From assembly GCA_027941995.1 (NCBI GenBank), contig CP115966.1, positions 1,178,001-1,242,000 of the forward strand: a stretch of DNA of 64,000 nucleotides, written 5' to 3'. Position 1 is the stretch's first letter, and each line of letters begins with the position of its first letter. The notes under the pieces were generated by a model. It saw only the letters and a program-made list of their open reading frames with translations, made no database searches and was not told the origin of the DNA. Positions 52,694 through 59,686 of the stretch are shown one piece after another. The DNA is from Erythrobacteraceae bacterium WH01K. GTDB taxonomy: Bacteria; Pseudomonadota; Alphaproteobacteria; Sphingomonadales; Sphingomonadaceae. The translations under genes were made by a program, and so were the position numbers.

Positions 52694-54112
52694 CTAGGCG
52701 GCATTGTCGATGCCGAGGTCGGACAGCTTGCGATAAAGGGTGGAGCGCCCGATGCCGAGCCGGCGGGCGACTTCGGTCATCCGTCCGCGATAATGACCGA
52801 TGGCGAGACGGATGACATCGGCCTCGATTTCCTCGAGCGGGCGCAGATTGCCGTCTTCGGTATAGAGCATCACGCCGATGGCTTCGTGCAGGGGCGCGGC
52901 GTTTTCGTCGATCTCGCCGACCAGTTCGGACAGTTGCGGGAAATCGCCGGCGGTCAGCGATTCGCCCTCGCAGAACACGGCAGCGCGGAACAGGACGGTC
53001 TGCAACTGCCGGACATTGCCCGGCCAGTCATAGGCGCACAGCAGCGACAGGGCGCTGTCGGCGAGCGAGAGATGCCTCAGTCCCGGCTGTTCCCCGATGC
53101 GGATCAGGAAATGGCGGGCCAGTGCGCCGATATCGCCGGGTCTCTCGCGCAGCGGCGGCAGGACGATGCGCGTGCCCGTGATCGCCTGTAGAAGGGCCGC
53201 GTCGAAATTGCCGGTCGTGACCAGGTCGTCGAGCGGAAGGTCGCTGGCGGAGAGGATGCGCACGTCCACCTTGAACCCGTGGGTGGCGCCGACGGGTCGC
53301 ACTATGCCCTCGGTAATGACCGAGGCGAGCCGGCCCTGCAGGTCTTTCCCGAGCCGGTCGATCTCGTCGAGGATCAGCGTTCCGCCATCGCAGAACTGGA
53401 TGGCCCCGATCTGCCGGTCGAACGCGCCGGGAAAGGCGCCCGGTTCGTGGCCGAACAATGCGGATTCTATCGAATTGGCCCGAACGCCGCCGACATTCAG
53501 CAGGCGATGCGGCGCCTTGGCACGCGGGCTGGCAGCCAGCATGGCGCGCAGCAGCATTTCCTTGCCCGTTCCGCGCTCGCCTTCAATCAGGACATGGCCG
53601 TGGCCGCGTGCCGTCTTTGCCGCGCGGGCGAGGGAGGTGCGGAATTCGGGCGCGGTTCCGATCATCGAATCGAAGTCGAGCTCGGCGTCGATTTTCTCCG
53701 TCAGGGGCTGCAATTCGTCGCGCGGCGCTTCCTTGCGGGTGGAACTGCGAAGCGCCGTCATCAGGCGATCGGGCGCGACCGGCTTGATCAGGTAGTCGGT
53801 GGCGCCCGCGCGCATCGCTTCCACGGCCAGCAGGGGGCTGGCGCTGGTGGTCAGCATCAGGATCGGCAGCGCAGGACGCCGGGCCTTCAGTTCCTCTATC
53901 AGCGAACAGGCATCGTCGCCCGGCACCCATTGGTCGAGGATGATGGCGGACAATTGCATGCCCTCGCGCGTGCCGAGCGTGGCAATCGCGGTCTCGCTGT
54001 CCTTCACCACGAGCGTACGCCAGCCCTCGCGCGCGGCGAGTGCCGTCACGAGGCGGCTTTGCGCCGGCTCGTCGTCGATCAGCATCAGCAGGCGGGTGTC
54101 GTCCTCGGCCAT
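52694..54112 (-). CDS. NtrC-family response regulator with altered GAFTGA loop
   Basis: 472 residues. Receiver with phospho-Asp60 (AIILDQWVPGDD), AAA+ domain with Walker A GERGTGKE (178-185) and Walker B-like TLILDEIDRL, and a Fis-type HTH (VARRLGIGRSTLYRKLSDLG). The sigma-54 contact loop, normally GAFTGA, reads GAFPGA (225-230, Pro228), so productive sigma-54 activation is doubtful; it may regulate sigma-70 promoters like TyrR-type members. No cognate kinase is adjacent. It is divergent from the cytochrome oxidase subunit gene. Confidence 0.9.
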   Translation of the reverse strand: MAEDDTRLLMLIDDEPAQSRLVTALAAREGWRTLVVKDSETAIATLGTREGMQLSAIILDQWVPGDDACSLIEELKARRPALPILMLTTSASPLLAVEAMRAGATDYLIKPVAPDRLMTALRSSTRKEAPRDELQPLTEKIDAELDFDSMIGTAPEFRTSLARAAKTARGHGHVLIEGERGTGKEMLLRAMLAASPRAKAPHRLLNVGGVRANSIESALFGHEPGAFPGAFDRQIGAIQFCDGGTLILDEIDRLGKDLQGRLASVITEGIVRPVGATHGFKVDVRILSASDLPLDDLVTTGNFDAALLQAITGTRIVLPPLRERPGDIGALARHFLIRIGEQPGLRHLSLADSALSLLCAYDWPGNVRQLQTVLFRAAVFCEGESLTAGDFPQLSELVGEIDENAAPLHEAIGVMLYTEDGNLRPLEEIEADVIRLAIGHYRGRMTEVARRLGIGRSTLYRKLSDLGIDNAA

Positions 54113-54240
54113 CGTTCCCCAAAACCGTCCCAGTGCGGTACAGAAAGGGCGTGATAGGTCGGCGGGGTAAAGTTCGTGTTAAGGCTGAAAAGAAGGTGTG
54201 CCGATCTCGCCGTTCGCAGGGGAAGGGCAGCGGCCGGGAC

Positions 54241-54267
54241 TTGCAGCGCGCGGGGGGTGGATATAGG
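54241..54267 (+). promoter_or_regulatory. Weak promoter candidate for the ctaP/pnt unit
   Basis: TTGCAG (54241-54246) and TATAGG (54262-54267), spacing 15, lie about 60 bp upstream of the small subunit gene in the 212-bp region divergent from the regulator. The match is imperfect; the rest of the region shows no other obvious feature. Confidence 0.3.
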
Positions 54268-54324
54268 ACTTCGCGCAACAGAGTTTTTCGCCGCACAGGC
54301 AATTTATCATTGGAGATCATTCCC

Positions 54325-54447
54325 ATGGCATCGAACGACATGAATGCTGCCAACAGCACCTATTCCAGCTTCATCGCATCGCTGAAGTGGATCCTGCCGC
54401 TGATCGCGGTGATCACGTTTCTCGTCGTTGTCATGATCGCAAGCTGA
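54325..54447 (+). CDS. aa3-type cytochrome c oxidase subunit IV (40 residues)
   Basis: 40 residues. One membrane helix (WILPLIAVITFLVVVMIAS) preceded by NSTYSSFIASLKW, the TYxxF...KW pattern of the tiny bacterial subunit IV of aa3 oxidase, which packs against the catalytic subunits and is not needed for catalysis. It sits directly in front of pntAA with a 4-bp gap. The other oxidase genes are elsewhere. Confidence 0.82.
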   Translation: MASNDMNAANSTYSSFIASLKWILPLIAVITFLVVVMIAS

Positions 54448-54451
54448 TCCG

Positions 54452-55570
54452 TTGCGGATCGCTGTCCTGAAAGAGCGCGAGGCGGGGGAAACCCGCGTTG
54501 CGCTGACGCCCGAAACCGCGAAGAAATTCATCGCGCTCGGGGCTGAAGTCGCGGTCGAGCGTGGGGCGGGAGAGACTGCCTCCATTCCGGACAGTGAGTA
54601 TGAAAACGCCGGGGCGTCGATCACGGACGCCGCGCAGGCGGTGACCGGGGCGGGCATCGTGCTGGGCATCCGCGCGCCCGATCCGCTTGCGCTTGCGGGC
54701 GCGAAGGACGGCGCGCTGGTCGCCGCCATCTTCGACCCCTTCCAGCAGCGTGATCGCGTGGAGGCTTACGCAAAGGCTGGCTTCGAGGCGCTGTCGATGG
54801 AATTCATGCCGCGCATTACCCGCGCGCAGAGCATGGATGTCCTGTCCAGCCAGTCCAACCTCTCTGGCTACAAGGCGGTCATCGCGGCGGCGAACCAGTT
54901 TGGCCGCGCCTTCCCCATGATGATGACCGCTGCCGGCACGGTGCAGGCGGCGAAGGTCTTCGTGATGGGCGTGGGCGTTGCCGGACTGCAGGCGATCGCC
55001 ACGGCGAAGCGTCTGGGCGCGCAGGTCAGCGCGACCGATGTCCGCTCCGCAACGAAAGAGCAGATCCAGTCGCTCGGCGCAAAACCCGTCTTCGTCGAGG
55101 ACGTCGCCGGTATCGAGGGCGAGGGTTCGGGCGGCTATGCCACCGAGATGAGCGAGGAATACCAGCAGGCGCAGGCGAAACTGGTGTCCGAGCATATCGC
55201 GAAGCAGGACATCGTCATCACCACCGCACTGATCCCCGGGCGCGAGGCGCCAAGGCTGATCTCCGACGCGCAGATTGCGACGATGAAGCCCGGCAGCGTG
55301 ATCTACGACCTTGCCGTGGCGCAAGGCGGCAATGTCGAGGGCAGCACGGCCGATGAACTGGTGACGCGTCACGGGGTCACCCTGATGGGTTATTCCAACA
55401 CGCCCGCGCATCTCGCCCCCGACGCGTCCGCATTGTTCGCGCGCAACCTGTTCAATTTCCTCTCTGCCTTCTGGGACAAGGACGCCGGGATTGTCGAACT
55501 GGACGAGGAAATCGGAGACGCCGTGCGCCTGACGAAGCACGGCAGGATCGTTCACGAGAGGTTGGTATGA
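54452..55570 (+). CDS. pntAA: NAD(P) transhydrogenase subunit alpha part 1
   Basis: 372 residues from a TTG at 54452 (no ATG before RIAVLKEREAGETRV). Soluble NAD(H)-binding domain I of proton-translocating transhydrogenase, which makes NADPH from NADH using the proton-motive force. Rossmann VMGVGVAGLQAIATAKRLGA and TTALIPGREAPRLI loops are present. The last 27 codons are repeated about 999 bp downstream inside another reading frame at 89% identity over 73 bp. The stop overlaps the next gene's ATG (ATGA). Confidence 0.94.
   Translation: MRIAVLKEREAGETRVALTPETAKKFIALGAEVAVERGAGETASIPDSEYENAGASITDAAQAVTGAGIVLGIRAPDPLALAGAKDGALVAAIFDPFQQRDRVEAYAKAGFEALSMEFMPRITRAQSMDVLSSQSNLSGYKAVIAAANQFGRAFPMMMTAAGTVQAAKVFVMGVGVAGLQAIATAKRLGAQVSATDVRSATKEQIQSLGAKPVFVEDVAGIEGEGSGGYATEMSEEYQQAQAKLVSEHIAKQDIVITTALIPGREAPRLISDAQIATMKPGSVIYDLAVAQGGNVEGSTADELVTRHGVTLMGYSNTPAHLAPDASALFARNLFNFLSAFWDKDAGIVELDEEIGDAVRLTKHGRIVHERLV
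55492..55564 (+). repeat. Duplicated pntAA 3' end, copy 1
   Basis: 73-bp segment encoding VELDEEIGDAVRLTKH and following residues of pntAA. It matches 56491-56563 at 65 of 73 bases. Offset exactly 999 bp. Confidence 0.9.
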
Positions 55571-56355
55571 AAACTTCGGTTTTTCTCTTAGCCGCTGTGA
55601 CATCGCTTTCGTGCGCGTTCGCGACGCCAGCCAGCGCGCGTTCGTCGATCGTCCCGTTGTTCCTCACCGCGCCCGAAGGTGACCAGGCAGCCGAGGGTTT
55701 TGTCGACGAGAACGAAGCTTTCTATAGCGTGCCAGTCGTTTCCGGTGTCACGGTTACACTAGCGCAAAGGATTGCAGTTCCCGGAAGCGCGATGACGCGC
55801 TACGTCGCTGCCGACACAGTGCTGTTTCAGGCGACCAGCACCGAAGGCATCGCCTATTGCGCATCCTCCAATAAGGATCTTGACGATCCTCCTCAATATG
55901 ATCGGATGGTGCGTGTCTTCGTCTGCTTGCGAGACGATGATCGCGATGGTGCCTTCGACCGTGCGCTGACGACCGGCGGTGAATCCGCTGCTTTTCCGGT
56001 GATGCAGGACGGGGACAATGACTGGATCGCACTGGGCGAACCCGTTCCCTACACGCTTTCGGCCGAGCAACCCTATCCCGTGGCTTATTCGATGCAATTT
56101 GTCCTGCGTCGTGCAATTCCGAAAAAGAACGTCGTGTTCATTGCCGCCAGGATTGGGAATGGGGACGAGGCTGAGACGATCTCCTATGATCGCTACGAAC
56201 TTGGGCCGCGGGGTGAACTGGAACTATTCGGGGGTCAGTTCCAGGTTTCGGCGATGACGAAGGATGGGGCTCAGTTCGAACTGGTTCGGTCCATGCCGAT
56301 ACGTCCGGTCATACTCGGCAAAACGCCGGCAAGATCGTTTTACGTTCCTGGGTAG
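55567..56355 (+). CDS. Secreted protein of unknown function inserted in the pnt operon
   Basis: 262 residues with signal peptide (MKTSVFLLAAVTSLSCAFATPASARS). No family recognised. A DDDRDGAFD stretch looks like a calcium-binding loop, and there are two cysteine-bearing strands (IAYCASSN, VFVCLRDD) and beta-rich repeats. Two sample lines of its coding sequence are 48% and 55% GC, visibly lower than the roughly two-thirds GC of the neighbours, which suggests transfer. It lies between pntAA and a chimeric remnant, bracketed by a repeat of the pntAA end. Confidence 0.6.
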   Translation: MKTSVFLLAAVTSLSCAFATPASARSSIVPLFLTAPEGDQAAEGFVDENEAFYSVPVVSGVTVTLAQRIAVPGSAMTRYVAADTVLFQATSTEGIAYCASSNKDLDDPPQYDRMVRVFVCLRDDDRDGAFDRALTTGGESAAFPVMQDGDNDWIALGEPVPYTLSAEQPYPVAYSMQFVLRRAIPKKNVVFIAARIGNGDEAETISYDRYELGPRGELELFGGQFQVSAMTKDGAQFELVRSMPIRPVILGKTPARSFYVPG

Positions 56356-56368
56356 GCGCACTTAACCA

Positions 56369-56572
56369 ATGGACTTCATCTTCATCCTGTTGCTTTCTGG
56401 CTCGGCATGTCTCGCTAGCACTTATGCGATCCGGTCGGTCACGTCCTCGCTGCGCACGCTGCTCCACAATGTCGGGCAAAAGTGTCGTACGGTCGAACTG
56501 GACGCAGAATTCGGAGAAGCCGTGCGCCTGACGAAGCACAGCAAGATCGTTCACGAAAGGTTGCAATCATGA
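56369..56572 (+). pseudogene. Chimeric remnant: pntAB-like start fused to a second pntAA end
   Basis: 67 residues, open from ATG 56369 to TGA. Residues 1-35 (MDFIFILL, ACLASTY, RSVTSSLRTLL) align without gaps to the start of PntAB (57568), with 17 of 35 identical. Residues about 41-67 (RTVELDAEFGEAVRLTKH and on) match the PntAA C-terminus; the DNA is 89% identical. No transhydrogenase activity could come from such a piece. The stop overlaps the next gene's ATG, just as in the intact pntAA. Best explained by duplication/recombination within the operon. It may still be translated as a small membrane peptide. Confidence 0.8.
56491..56563 (+). repeat. Duplicated pntAA 3' end, copy 2
   Basis: Second copy of the 73-bp segment described at 55492-55564, eight mismatches, several of them changing G to A. 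Confidence 0.9.
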
Positions 56573-56700
56573 ACCGTGCGGCATGGCTCATTCTGCTGGG
56601 CATCGGTCTGGTCCTGTTGTTCGTCCTCGGCTTGAATGCCGGTTACTTCGCAGGCACCCAGCTTTCGAATGGCGAAAACATTGAGGCGAGCGAGGGGTGA
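56569..56700 (+). CDS. Small single-helix membrane protein in the pnt operon
   Basis: 43 residues, MNRAAWLILLGIGLVLLFVL then GLNAGYFAGTQLSNGENIEASEG. One membrane helix with an acidic exported or cytosolic tail. ATGA overlap with the chimeric remnant and 2-bp gap to the next lipoprotein gene. Unknown family. It probably followed pntAA before the insertion (inference from the repeated junction). Confidence 0.6.
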   Translation: MNRAAWLILLGIGLVLLFVLGLNAGYFAGTQLSNGENIEASEG

Positions 56701-56702
56701 CC

Positions 56703-57125
56703 ATGCGCCTTGGAATTGCCGCAGCCATCATTGCATCGCTGGCGCTGGCCGGGTGCGACGGTATGCAGCCGGGGGCAAGCAGCTACGATACCCGCGCGGC
56801 TTCGGCCGGCTCGGATTTCCGATATGGCGCGCGCGAAGTGGTTGCCGGGCTGCAGCCAGTCTGTCCCTACACGGTAGAGGACGAACGGCTGGCGCAATAC
56901 GACCCGGTCCGCGCGCGGATGGAAGCGCTGGAAGAGCGGATTGCGGGCACGGCGCTGGAAGTCGACCTGGCGGTCGTTCGTTCGGACTACGCCCATTTCT
57001 GGCAGGTCAATACGGCCGAATGCGGCGAACCGGACGGCGAGACCGTAGAAGAACAGATCGCCGCCGAGATTGCGAAAATCGTCGCCGGGCTCGACCGCAT
57101 GGAAGCCGCGGCGGGCGTCACTTGA
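56703..57125 (+). CDS. Small lipoprotein in the pnt operon
   Basis: About 140 residues from ATG 56703 (a GTG at 56697 overlaps the preceding stop). Lipobox LALAGC near residue 17. The mature part is helical (YGAREVVAGLQPV, MEALEERIAGTALEVDLAVV) with Cys in LQPVCPYTV and AECGEPDG, which could form a disulfide. No family recognised. Lies within the run of pnt genes. Confidence 0.65.
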   Translation: MRLGIAAAIIASLALAGCDGMQPGASSYDTRAASAGSDFRYGAREVVAGLQPVCPYTVEDERLAQYDPVRARMEALEERIAGTALEVDLAVVRSDYAHFWQVNTAECGEPDGETVEEQIAAEIAKIVAGLDRMEAAAGVT

Positions 57126-57130
57126 CCTGC

Positions 57131-57565
57131 ATGGCGCCGAGAGATGCACGGATTGCCGCCGGGGTGCTGGCGGCGGCCATGATCGTGCTGGCATCGCAGC
57201 CTGTTGCTGCCCGCTCGACGCACGGTGCAGTCGATGCGAGTGAAGAGCAATCCGCAGCCTGGGCGGGCGAGTGGAGCGTGGATTTGCGGTTATCGCTCGA
57301 CGACCCGCATTACACGCAGCCGATGACCCTTGTCTCGACTGGCGAAGGGGACGTGGCAGGCTCGTTCTACGGCTCTCCGATAGAGGCCGGACGCGCTGGC
57401 GAGGCGAAAGGCCGCACCTGCCTGTCCTTCCGCACCAGCGACGACAGCGGCCCCTATTTCCACGCCGCTTGTCTGGAAGGCGAAAAGATGACCGGGCAAA
57501 GCTGGAGCACGGGGCGCGGCTTCGTCCTCCCCTGGACCGCGACGCGCTTAGCAGAGAAGGACTGA
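57131..57565 (+). CDS. Exported protein of unknown function in the pnt operon
   Basis: 144 residues from ATG 57131 with signal MAPRDARIAAGVLAAAMIVL. Mature part has WAGEWSVDLRLSLDDPHYTQPM and GRTCLSFRTSDDSGPYFHAACLE, two cysteines and a beta-sandwich-like pattern. No family recognised. Co-directional and tightly packed before pntAB (TTG start two bases after its stop). Confidence 0.65.
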   Translation: MAPRDARIAAGVLAAAMIVLASQPVAARSTHGAVDASEEQSAAWAGEWSVDLRLSLDDPHYTQPMTLVSTGEGDVAGSFYGSPIEAGRAGEAKGRTCLSFRTSDDSGPYFHAACLEGEKMTGQSWSTGRGFVLPWTATRLAEKD

Positions 57566-57567
57566 CC

Positions 57568-57852
57568 TTGGACTTCATTTCGATCCTGTCGATTTTCGTG
57601 CTGGCGTGTTTCGTCGGCTATTACGTGGTCTGGTCGGTCACGCCCGCGCTGCACACGCCGCTGATGGCGGTGACCAATGCGATTTCGTCGGTCATCATCG
57701 TCGGCGCGCTGATCGCGGCGGCAGCGGCGGATGTGCCGGGGGCGAAATGGCTGGGGCTGCTCGGCATCGTGCTCGCCAGCGTGAACATCTTCGGCGGGTT
57801 CGCGGTGACGGCGCGAATGCTCGCCATGTACAAGAAGAAGGAGAAGAAGTGA
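57568..57852 (+). CDS. pntAB: NAD(P) transhydrogenase subunit alpha part 2 (membrane)
   Basis: 94 residues from a TTG at 57568 (LDFISILSIFVLACFVGYYV). The membrane part of the alpha subunit (domain II), with about three helices ending in GGFAVTARMLAMYKKKEKK. Works with PntAA and PntB in proton pumping. Ends with TGATG overlap into pntB. A degenerate copy of its first 35 codons lies at 56369. Confidence 0.92.
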   Translation: MDFISILSIFVLACFVGYYVVWSVTPALHTPLMAVTNAISSVIIVGALIAAAAADVPGAKWLGLLGIVLASVNIFGGFAVTARMLAMYKKKEKK

Positions 57853-59348
57853 TGTTCTCCTACTTCGTTGCCGCTTGGCGAACCGACGTCGAGCCAGAGT
57901 TTGCCCTCGACACAGCTTCCGATCTTGGAATGGCGCATGGCGGAGTAAACCCGTGGGTCGCACTCGCCTATCTCGTGTCGGGCGTGTTCTTCATCCTTGC
58001 GCTGCGCGGACTGTCCTCGCCCGCGACGAGCCGGACGGGCAACCGCTTCGGCATGATCGGCATGCTGATCGCGGTGGTGACGACGATGGTGACGCGCGAC
58101 ATTGCCAATATTGTCGAAATCCTCATCGCGATCGCGGTCGGTGGCGTGATCGGCCTTGTCATCGCCCGCCGCATCGCCATGACCTCAATGCCCGAGCTGG
58201 TCGCGGCCTTCCATTCGTTGGTCGGCCTTGCCGCGGTGCTGGTCGGCTGGGCGGCTTATCTCAATCCGGGTGCTTTCGGCTTGCTGATCGGCGACAGCAT
58301 CGGCGCGGTTTCCAAAGTCGAGATGGGTCTCGGCATCGCCATCGGAGCCATCACCTTCTCCGGCTCGGTCATCGCCTTTGCCAAGTTATCGGGCCGAATG
58401 AGCGGTTCGCCGATTTTGCTGCCCGCGAGGCACGTCATCAACCTCGGCACGCTGGCGGCGATCATCGTGCTGACCGCGCTCTTCGCCATGGCCGGGCCGG
58501 CCGAGACCAGGCCGCTGATTATTGCGCTGACGGTGCTCGCTTTCCTCATCGGCTTCCTGCTGATCATCCCCATCGGCGGGGCGGACATGCCGGTCGTGGT
58601 GTCGATGCTGAACAGTTATTCGGGCTGGGCCGCGGCTGCGATGGGCTTCACGCTCGGCAATACGGCGATGATCATCACCGGCGCACTGGTCGGCTCCTCG
58701 GGCGCGATCCTCAGCTACATCATGTGCCGGGCGATGAACCGCAGCTTCATCAGCGTAATCGCGGGCGGCTTCGGCGCGGATGACAGCGCGGCTGGCAGCG
58801 GCGAGGCGAAGGAGCAGCGCCCCTACAAACAGGGCAGCGCGGCCGATGCGGCCTTCATGCTGGAACAGGCGGAAAAGGTCATCATCATCCCGGGCTACGG
58901 CATGGCGGTGGCGCAGGCACAGCACGCACTGCGCGAAATGGCCGACATGCTGGAAGAAAAGGGCGTGGAGGTAAAATACGCCATCCACCCCGTCGCCGGG
59001 CGCATGCCGGGGCATATGAACGTTCTCCTCGCCGAAGCGCAGGTGCCGTACGAGAACGTGTTCGAGCTGGAAGACATCAACTCCGAATTCGCGCAGGCGG
59101 ACGTCGCCTTCATTATCGGCGCGAACGATGTGGTTAATCCGGCGGCCAAGACCGACAAGTCCAGCCCCATCTACGGCATGCCCGTGTTCGACGTGGACAA
59201 GGCCAAGCAGGTATTCTTCATCAAGCGCAGCATGGGCGGCGTGGGCTATGCCGGCGTCGACAATGACGTGTTCTACATGGACCAGACCATGATGCTGCTG
59301 TCCGATGCCAAGAAGATGGTCGAGGAAATCGTGAAGGCGATGGATTGA
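57852..59348 (+). CDS. pntB: NAD(P) transhydrogenase subunit beta
   Basis: 498 residues if started at the coupled ATG (57852); the family's usual start (MAHGGVNPWVALAYLVSG) is at 57930, which would give 472 and make the first 26 residues, of a non-membrane type, an extension. Nine or so membrane helices followed by the soluble NADP(H)-binding domain III with VIIIPGYGMAVAQAQHAL and GANDVVNPAAK and DVDKAKQVFFIKRSM. Transports one proton per hydride transferred. Followed immediately by a lipoprotein gene (TTGA overlap). Confidence 0.93.
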   Translation: MFSYFVAAWRTDVEPEFALDTASDLGMAHGGVNPWVALAYLVSGVFFILALRGLSSPATSRTGNRFGMIGMLIAVVTTMVTRDIANIVEILIAIAVGGVIGLVIARRIAMTSMPELVAAFHSLVGLAAVLVGWAAYLNPGAFGLLIGDSIGAVSKVEMGLGIAIGAITFSGSVIAFAKLSGRMSGSPILLPARHVINLGTLAAIIVLTALFAMAGPAETRPLIIALTVLAFLIGFLLIIPIGGADMPVVVSMLNSYSGWAAAAMGFTLGNTAMIITGALVGSSGAILSYIMCRAMNRSFISVIAGGFGADDSAAGSGEAKEQRPYKQGSAADAAFMLEQAEKVIIIPGYGMAVAQAQHALREMADMLEEKGVEVKYAIHPVAGRMPGHMNVLLAEAQVPYENVFELEDINSEFAQADVAFIIGANDVVNPAAKTDKSSPIYGMPVFDVDKAKQVFFIKRSMGGVGYAGVDNDVFYMDQTMMLLSDAKKMVEEIVKAMD

Positions 59349-59686
59349 CCCGCGCCCTGCTGGCGGCCGGTGCTGCGCTGCTTTTGAACGGCTGCATCGA
59401 CCGGATCGCCGAGAGCCGGGTCGAAAGCGCGCTGGTAAAAAATGGCGTGGGCGATGGCACGGCGTCCTGCATGGCCGCGCGCATGGTAGACCGGCTGACC
59501 ATCGACCAGCTTCGCAAGCTGGAAGGCCTCGCCCCGCAGGATGGGGAGGCCCGGCGACCCACCGGCGTGCGCGATTTCCTGGCCCGGGTGCGGCGCGTGG
59601 GCGATGCGGAAGTGATTGCCGTAACCGGCTCCTCTGCTGCCCTGTGTGCCAGCGGCATTGCCCGCGAGGCAGGTGGAGGGGCCTAG
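59345..59686 (+). CDS. Small lipoprotein
   Basis: 113 residues from a TTG overlapping the pntB stop (TTGA). Lipobox LLLNGC near residue 17. The mature part (IDRIAESRVESALVKNGVGDGTASCMAARMVDRLT) is helical with Cys in ASC and ALC. It resembles small alphaproteobacterial lipoproteins of unknown role. Third or fourth envelope protein associated with the pnt operon. The next gene's GTG follows directly (TAG-GTG). Confidence 0.65.
   Translation: MTRALLAAGAALLLNGCIDRIAESRVESALVKNGVGDGTASCMAARMVDRLTIDQLRKLEGLAPQDGEARRPTGVRDFLARVRRVGDAEVIAVTGSSAALCASGIAREAGGGA

Follow-up and report, generated by a model that had tools for sequence, protein, structure and literature searches.

How does the start of one operon gene come to be joined to the end of another, within the operon to which both belong? 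The question arises at the transhydrogenase locus of Erythrobacteraceae bacterium WH01K, where a short open reading frame lying between pntAA and pntAB couples a decayed pntAB start to a copy of the pntAA end. The window analysed here is the 64,000-nucleotide stretch containing this locus (contig CP115966.1, positions 1,178,001 to 1,242,000); the genes and repeat copies given by coordinates below are on its plus strand.

The operon and its cargo

The gene order is pntAA, a gene for a 262-aa predicted exported protein, a 67-codon chimera, a 43-aa peptide, a lipoprotein, a 144-aa predicted exported protein, pntAB and pntB. AlaDh_PNT domains in PntAA and PNTB_4TM in PntAB place the locus in the proton-translocating transhydrogenase operon. 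An intact pntAA (54452–55570) matches Pfam AlaDh_PNT_N and AlaDh_PNT_C; pntAB (57568–57852, TTG start) matches PNTB_4TM at E = 5.7e-36; pntB (57852–59348) was named from its place and length. The four genes enclosed, referred to here as cargo, encode the 262-aa protein (55567–56355, with an ATGA overlap with pntAA), a 43-aa predicted membrane peptide (56569–56700, with an ATGA overlap with the chimera), a putative lipoprotein (56703–57125, or from an alternative GTG start at 56697) and the 144-aa protein (57131–57565). All four proteins are without matches in Pfam (E≤1) and in NCBIfam (E≤0.1); whether they carry export signals was decided by visual inspection together with a crude rule. A first-pass annotation had described a lower-GC gene for a secreted protein, bracketed by repeats, and this stands: the 262-codon frame occupies a stretch of 55–59% GC, most neighbouring 300-bp windows having 60–70% (other low-GC spots, near 57%, are 54100–54549 and 59050–59349), and export is predicted.

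A single-sequence fold model of the 262-aa protein (mean pLDDT 37.9) was set aside, and the single match to solved structures, an antibody chain (E = 0.024), was taken as chance. Scans of the locus found no promoters (1.3 expected by shuffling) and four terminators (3.6 expected). A 40-codon predicted membrane-protein frame is located just upstream of pntAA (54325–54447), and a similar frame seems to occupy the same place in one relative (L008). A plasmid origin was also considered and rejected: 284 plasmid records match at 60–80% identity, and none covers 80% of the query in one place.

A direct repeat and a chimeric open reading frame

The 3' end of pntAA occurs twice, at 55493–55564 and 56492–56563, with 65 of 72 nucleotides identical and a spacing of 999 bp; the repeat and spacing reported at first pass are thus real, its length being 72 nt rather than 73. 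The second copy forms the right half of the chimeric frame (56369–56572, 67 codons); the left half (56369–56463), in the same frame, is a degraded version of the pntAB start, ~31 codons long. This left half differs from the window's own pntAB head at 26 of 94 bases (56370–56463 compared to 57569–57662: 72% identical ungapped, 74.7% by blastn with one compensating gap pair). The in-frame fusion had been recognised correctly, although homology to pntAB is clear for ~31–32 codons and not for the 35 first proposed. Between the halves is a junction zone (56464–56491) without clear homology to pntAA or pntAB. The ATGA stop/start overlap that had been described for both copies was read directly at 55567–55570 and 56569–56572; in the second copy a purine-rich GAAAGG precedes the next ATG by 8 nt.

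The interval between pntAA and pntAB (hereafter the slot) was searched with the locus's own gene ends, giving E = 4e-25 for the tail and E = 1.5e-12 for the head. In 94 distinct slots tested, the strongest matches for both ends were those of the window; reverse-complement controls of the same slots gave zero matches and shuffled controls one weak match (E = 0.004). One other clear head match was found (L133, E = 9e-7), plus weak matches for the tail in L078 (E = 0.001) and for the head in L095 (E = 0.002). With clear fossils in two of 94 slots and weak candidates in two more, the route by which such scars form is rare. The L133 fossil (genome G082), a second pntAB head, lies ~380–430 bp past the pntAA stop and starts at the stop codon of a cargo gene; the L078 match (81% over 32 bp, ~680–710 bp into the slot) is a possible further fossil.

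Two explanations bear directly on the repeat. Repeats can confuse assemblies, yet an assembly error is exceedingly improbable: the copies differ by 10% and 25–28%, and the genome, in 2 contigs, is scored 100% complete. Alternatively, a small mobile element may have integrated at the pntAA 3' end and regenerated the gene end, as islands do at tRNA genes; a repeat consisting of the 3' end of a gene is the classic picture of such sites. We regard this as very unlikely, given that no integrase is present among 17 proteins scanned against Pfam (seven from the window and ten cargo proteins of relatives), that the pntAB head at the end of the unit is nothing an element would have reason to carry, and that the 93 other slots contain a single weak tail-like match (in L078).

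A variable slot between two subunit genes

pntAA was detected at E≤1e-60 in 141 of the 149 genomes searched. Slot size was measured in a sample of 100 stretches from relatives and 80 named loci: 176 of these 180 gave a measurable interval (4 gave none), and with the window the set comprises 177 loci. Because some genomes occur in both sets, counts of slots were made on distinct slots. The interval is at least 300 bp in 89 of the 177 loci and ranges from 0 to 2.8 kb; at the next joint (pntAB to the pntB open frame, a looser measure) at least 300 bp is found in 1 of 174. Here the first-pass annotation needs amending: it is only the scar that is rare, and cargo between pntAA and pntAB is nothing odd in itself.

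Nine cargo clusters (formed by single linkage, with Pfam names resting on one representative each) recur in 2 to 24 of the 85 distinct slots of at least 300 bp. The commonest is a DUF559 cluster (named by its scanned member; 24 slots), followed by a cluster of fasciclin-domain lipoproteins (16), the family of the window's lipoprotein (11), the 262-aa family, the 144-aa family and a bPH_1 cluster (9 each), glyoxalase-like lipoproteins (7), a PDZ protein cluster (4) and an unnamed family (2). About half of the cargo is predicted to be exported (52 of 96 clustered slot ORFs pass the crude export rule). That all cargo was counted on the plus strand is not evidence, since the choice of ORFs was weighted to this strand and to overlap with pntAA.

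Two side observations concern the slot. Its commonest occupant, the cluster with an endonuclease-like DUF559 protein as its scanned member (24 distinct loci, for example L081), could promote exchange. In Aurantiacibacter rhizosphaerae two different pntAA genes (L167 and L204) are present in one genome, each near a contig end, a hint of two versions of the pnt operon.

Cargo families in relatives

Members of the 262-aa family are found directly after pntAA, overlapping it, as the sole or first cargo in five loci (L066, L076, L144, L155 and L008), and also in the slots of L065 and L068. Compared pairwise with family members, the window's protein shows ~26–36% identity in the longer alignments (E = 9e-9 to 0.037; ~28% to L066); the L144 member, with a pairwise E of 0.93, is linked via other members. 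All eight rows of the family alignment share two invariant cysteines and an invariant D-x-D-x-D motif. When 148 genomes were searched with the window's protein as a single sequence, only its own genome and the genome of L065 (G004) were recovered, the latter match being in the slot. Judged by sequence, the window's protein is only a distant relative of slot members elsewhere, which counts against the merger proposed below and against naming the donor allele. A family search gave 18 matches, nine in the slot and nine elsewhere: the family is therefore not bound to the slot. One congener carries a member outside the pnt locus (L250, G001:C1:66546-67301).

The remaining cargo also has relatives at this joint in other genomes. 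In both congeners (L063 and L064) the slot opens with a relative of the putative lipoprotein (66–67% identity), which in L063 is the sole cargo. The 43-aa peptide matches the sole slot cargo of Qipengyuania flava (58–61% over 36 aa). In the comparison of pnt loci suggested at first pass, pntAA-[43 aa]-pntAB was seen in Q. flava, and the exact order 43-lipoprotein-144 in none of the genomes examined. L008 has the arrangement pntAA-[262 family]-[lipoprotein]-pntAB, the first three genes having overlapping ends, without a scar.

The 144-aa family has 10 matches in 149 genomes, all downstream of pntAA: nine lie between pntAA and pntAB by coordinates, and the tenth (G056) is 0.75 kb downstream of pntAA on the same strand, pntAB not being seen. 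For the lipoprotein family 10 of 12 matches follow pntAA, including all eight above 140 bits; the other two, elsewhere, are weak (32–34 bits). Because slot members served to build the profiles, the strong matches are biased towards the slot, but a strong match outside it would not have been hidden. Two cargo families (the 144-aa family and the lipoprotein) are thus found almost only at the pntAA–pntAB joint.

Two histories in one operon

Trees were built from 49 of the 163 usable distinct loci, namely those most similar to the window. In the PntAA tree the window groups with its two congeners (support 100/98). In the PntAB+PntB tree its partner is Erythrobacter vulgaris (L164; support 99/85), and the two belong to a larger group of 11 rows that has weak support (83/96) and includes many rows labelled Qipengyuania. 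In AU tests, for which the groupings were named after the trees had been seen, forcing the window together with its congeners was rejected for PntAB+PntB (p-AU = 0.00107) and forcing it together with L164 was rejected for PntAA (p-AU = 0.00113). A scan in 90-bp windows compared the best of six Qipengyuania-type loci to the better of two congeners, a choice that favours the former: Qipengyuania-type loci are closer in 28 of the 29 listed windows starting between the pntAB start and 59248, and beyond the pntB stop the congeners are closer. The gene after pntB matches the congeners at 76% and 73%, as against 43–48% for five Qipengyuania-type loci (64% for L193, also labelled Qipengyuania).

Together the scan, the trees and the next gene delimit a foreign tract that covers pntAB and pntB, with its right edge near the 3' end of pntB and its left edge in the slot. 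By sequence comparison the operon is recombinant: pntAA, the vertically inherited half, belongs with the congeners, and pntAB-pntB belongs with Qipengyuania-type genomes. In other loci, eight PntAA pairs with good support were tested on PntAB+PntB, which rejected two of them (p<0.05) and not the other six (of 13 clade tests in all, 8 gave a result and 2 needed no test); in split-gene controls covering 71 loci, disagreement within genes was about as large as that between pntAA and pntB, which counts against reading extra recombination into this joint. The first 95 bp of the window's pntAB (57568–57662) are identical at 93–94 of 95 positions to the closest loci of other genera; the median over all loci is 83.

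Decay and ancestry of the scar

In the pntAB half of the chimeric frame, the 26 differences from the window's pntAB head are spread over codon positions as 9/10/7; 20 of them lead to bases found in less than 5% of family heads, and at the protein level 17 of 31 positions depart from the family consensus. This pattern looks like unconstrained decay, without visible protein-level constraint in the pntAB half. An old, conserved gene of 67 residues, a possibility raised at first pass, was sought in 149 genomes and is absent from the matches listed: the own match has E = 1.2e-39 and the best other, among the matches listed, E = 5.9e-6. The non-self matches listed come from genuine ends of pntAA, genuine starts of pntAB, and weak similarities due to chance (such as residues 3–65 in G192, 29%, E = 0.18). 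Since changes in the pntAB part are roughly even over codon positions, and only its own genome matches well over the whole length (among the matches listed, 149 genomes), the 67-codon product looks like a scar and not a gene.

The peptide might nevertheless work as a small membrane protein, or be translated as a leader retained because its sequence matters, and the intact frame lends this notion something: it is kept across the fusion, both homologous parts are without net indel, and the N-terminal half is still hydrophobic by eye. We consider it improbable in view of the roughly evenly spread changes in the head, the alteration of the tail at two bases invariant in 144 other pntAA tails, and the want of any good full-length relative among the matches listed; Pfam and NCBIfam gave no match to the peptide. 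An open frame may have a different cause. The pntAA half of the scar would supply the 43-codon gene with its purine-rich stretch and ATGA overlap, and the frame may have stayed open and unshifted because that half serves this gene. The purine-rich motif precedes the pntAA stop in only 89 of 177 loci, so the idea of ribosome binding is weak as a rule for the family.

The head copy is roughly equidistant from all heads (best 73 of 95, the window's own 68, median 65). Five sites tell the heads of the congeners apart from Qipengyuania-type ones. The head copy agrees with the Qipengyuania type at four of them and with neither group at the fifth; since the family majority has these four bases too, they do not name a donor. 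The tail copy is closest to the window's own pntAA among 181 tails (68 of 78, the next being 60). It shares with that gene a C found at the same site in none of 144 other aligned tails, and an A found at another site in two of 144. Given these rare shared bases, the duplication arose in this lineage.

The resemblance of the tail copy to the window's own pntAA is also what would be expected from an in-place tandem duplication running from late pntAA to early pntAB, which on its own yields the order of pntAB head and pntAA tail; the copied cargo would then have been replaced by the 262-aa gene. The repeat search detected no homology between the two inter-repeat cargos (the 262-aa gene and 43-lipoprotein-144), so a second event, the replacement, is needed. 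This, and the existence of separate alleles with each kind of cargo, make in-place duplication an unlikely origin.

A probable merger of two operon alleles

It is likely, in our judgement, that two operon alleles merged in one cell and left the join of pntAB head to pntAA tail. The pattern of variation suggests that small genes are swapped among sphingomonads in the slot at the pntAA–pntAB joint, through recombination in the conserved genes that flank it. On this model an allele pntAA-[262 aa]-pntAB and an allele pntAA-[43 aa]-[lipoprotein]-[144 aa]-pntAB would have come to lie in tandem, through a merodiploid followed by deletion or through one illegitimate crossover. The stretch from the early pntAB of the first allele to the late pntAA of the second would have been lost, leaving 56369–56572 as the join, which would since have decayed.

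Separate alleles in relatives support the merger: the 262-aa family, the lipoprotein and the 43-aa peptide are each found as a slot version of their own. We also count for it the scar-free arrangement of L008, the closeness of the tail copy to the window's own pntAA, the Qipengyuania-type bases of the head copy, the mosaic operon, and the second pntAB-head fossil, which in L133 immediately follows the stop codon of a cargo gene. The first-pass proposal that two versions of the operon recombined is borne out by the separate existence of these versions and by the different histories of the operon halves. The exact tandem intermediate was present in none of the genomes examined. Unequal decay counts against the merger: the head differs at 26 of 94 positions and the tail at 7 of 72 (Fisher P = 0.0055), a contrast not expected had both arisen at once in a single event. 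The tail may have decayed less because the signals that start the 43-codon gene lie in it, because the intact pntAA close by has converted it, or because the head is older.

Significance and relation to known systems

The operon of an enzyme complex is generally pictured as a tight unit; in the sphingomonads compared here the boundary between two such subunit genes varies in the manner of a swap site. A readable merger scar suggests how two operon alleles can combine without a mobile element, and the locus-bound cargo families are candidate partners of a central NADPH enzyme. A stronger proposal, which we put forward only as a long shot, is that the slot is not neutral: the 144-aa and lipoprotein families would act on the transhydrogenase as interchangeable partners or tuners, being translated together with PntAA, and the joint would be a cassette site, perhaps aided by DUF559 proteins.

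In domains and order the locus resembles the three-gene proton-translocating transhydrogenase operon pntAA-pntAB-pntB, but its pntAA and pntAB are separated by a scar and four cargo genes. Mosaic operons, in which genes are displaced in place, are known; as in these, one half of the operon is foreign, the other vertical and the order kept, with the difference that here a merger scar still has the ends of both genes readable. Gene ends are also duplicated at island attachment sites, where, as in the window, a copy of the 3' end of a gene borders inserted DNA; here, however, no integrase turned up among the proteins scanned, and the copy has been fused with the beginning of the gene that comes next in the operon.

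The nearest comparison is with hotspots that lack mobile elements and are turned over by recombination at flanking core genes, as described in a 2017 study (PMC5635113). The slot has flanking genes present in nearly all genomes, strongly varying content and flanks with conflicting histories. Like the hotspots of that study it has variable genes between conserved ones, no integrase in the cargo scanned, and conflicting flank trees. It differs from them in that its flanking genes belong to a single operon and encode two subunits of the same enzyme, and in that the slot spans 0–2.8 kb and is almost the only address of two cargo families. No title describing a pntAA–pntAB slot appeared among the literature matches listed. 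Core-flanked hotspots themselves are known: what is new is the place of this one between the subunits of a single enzyme and the preserved join, and the families bound to that address are unusual too.
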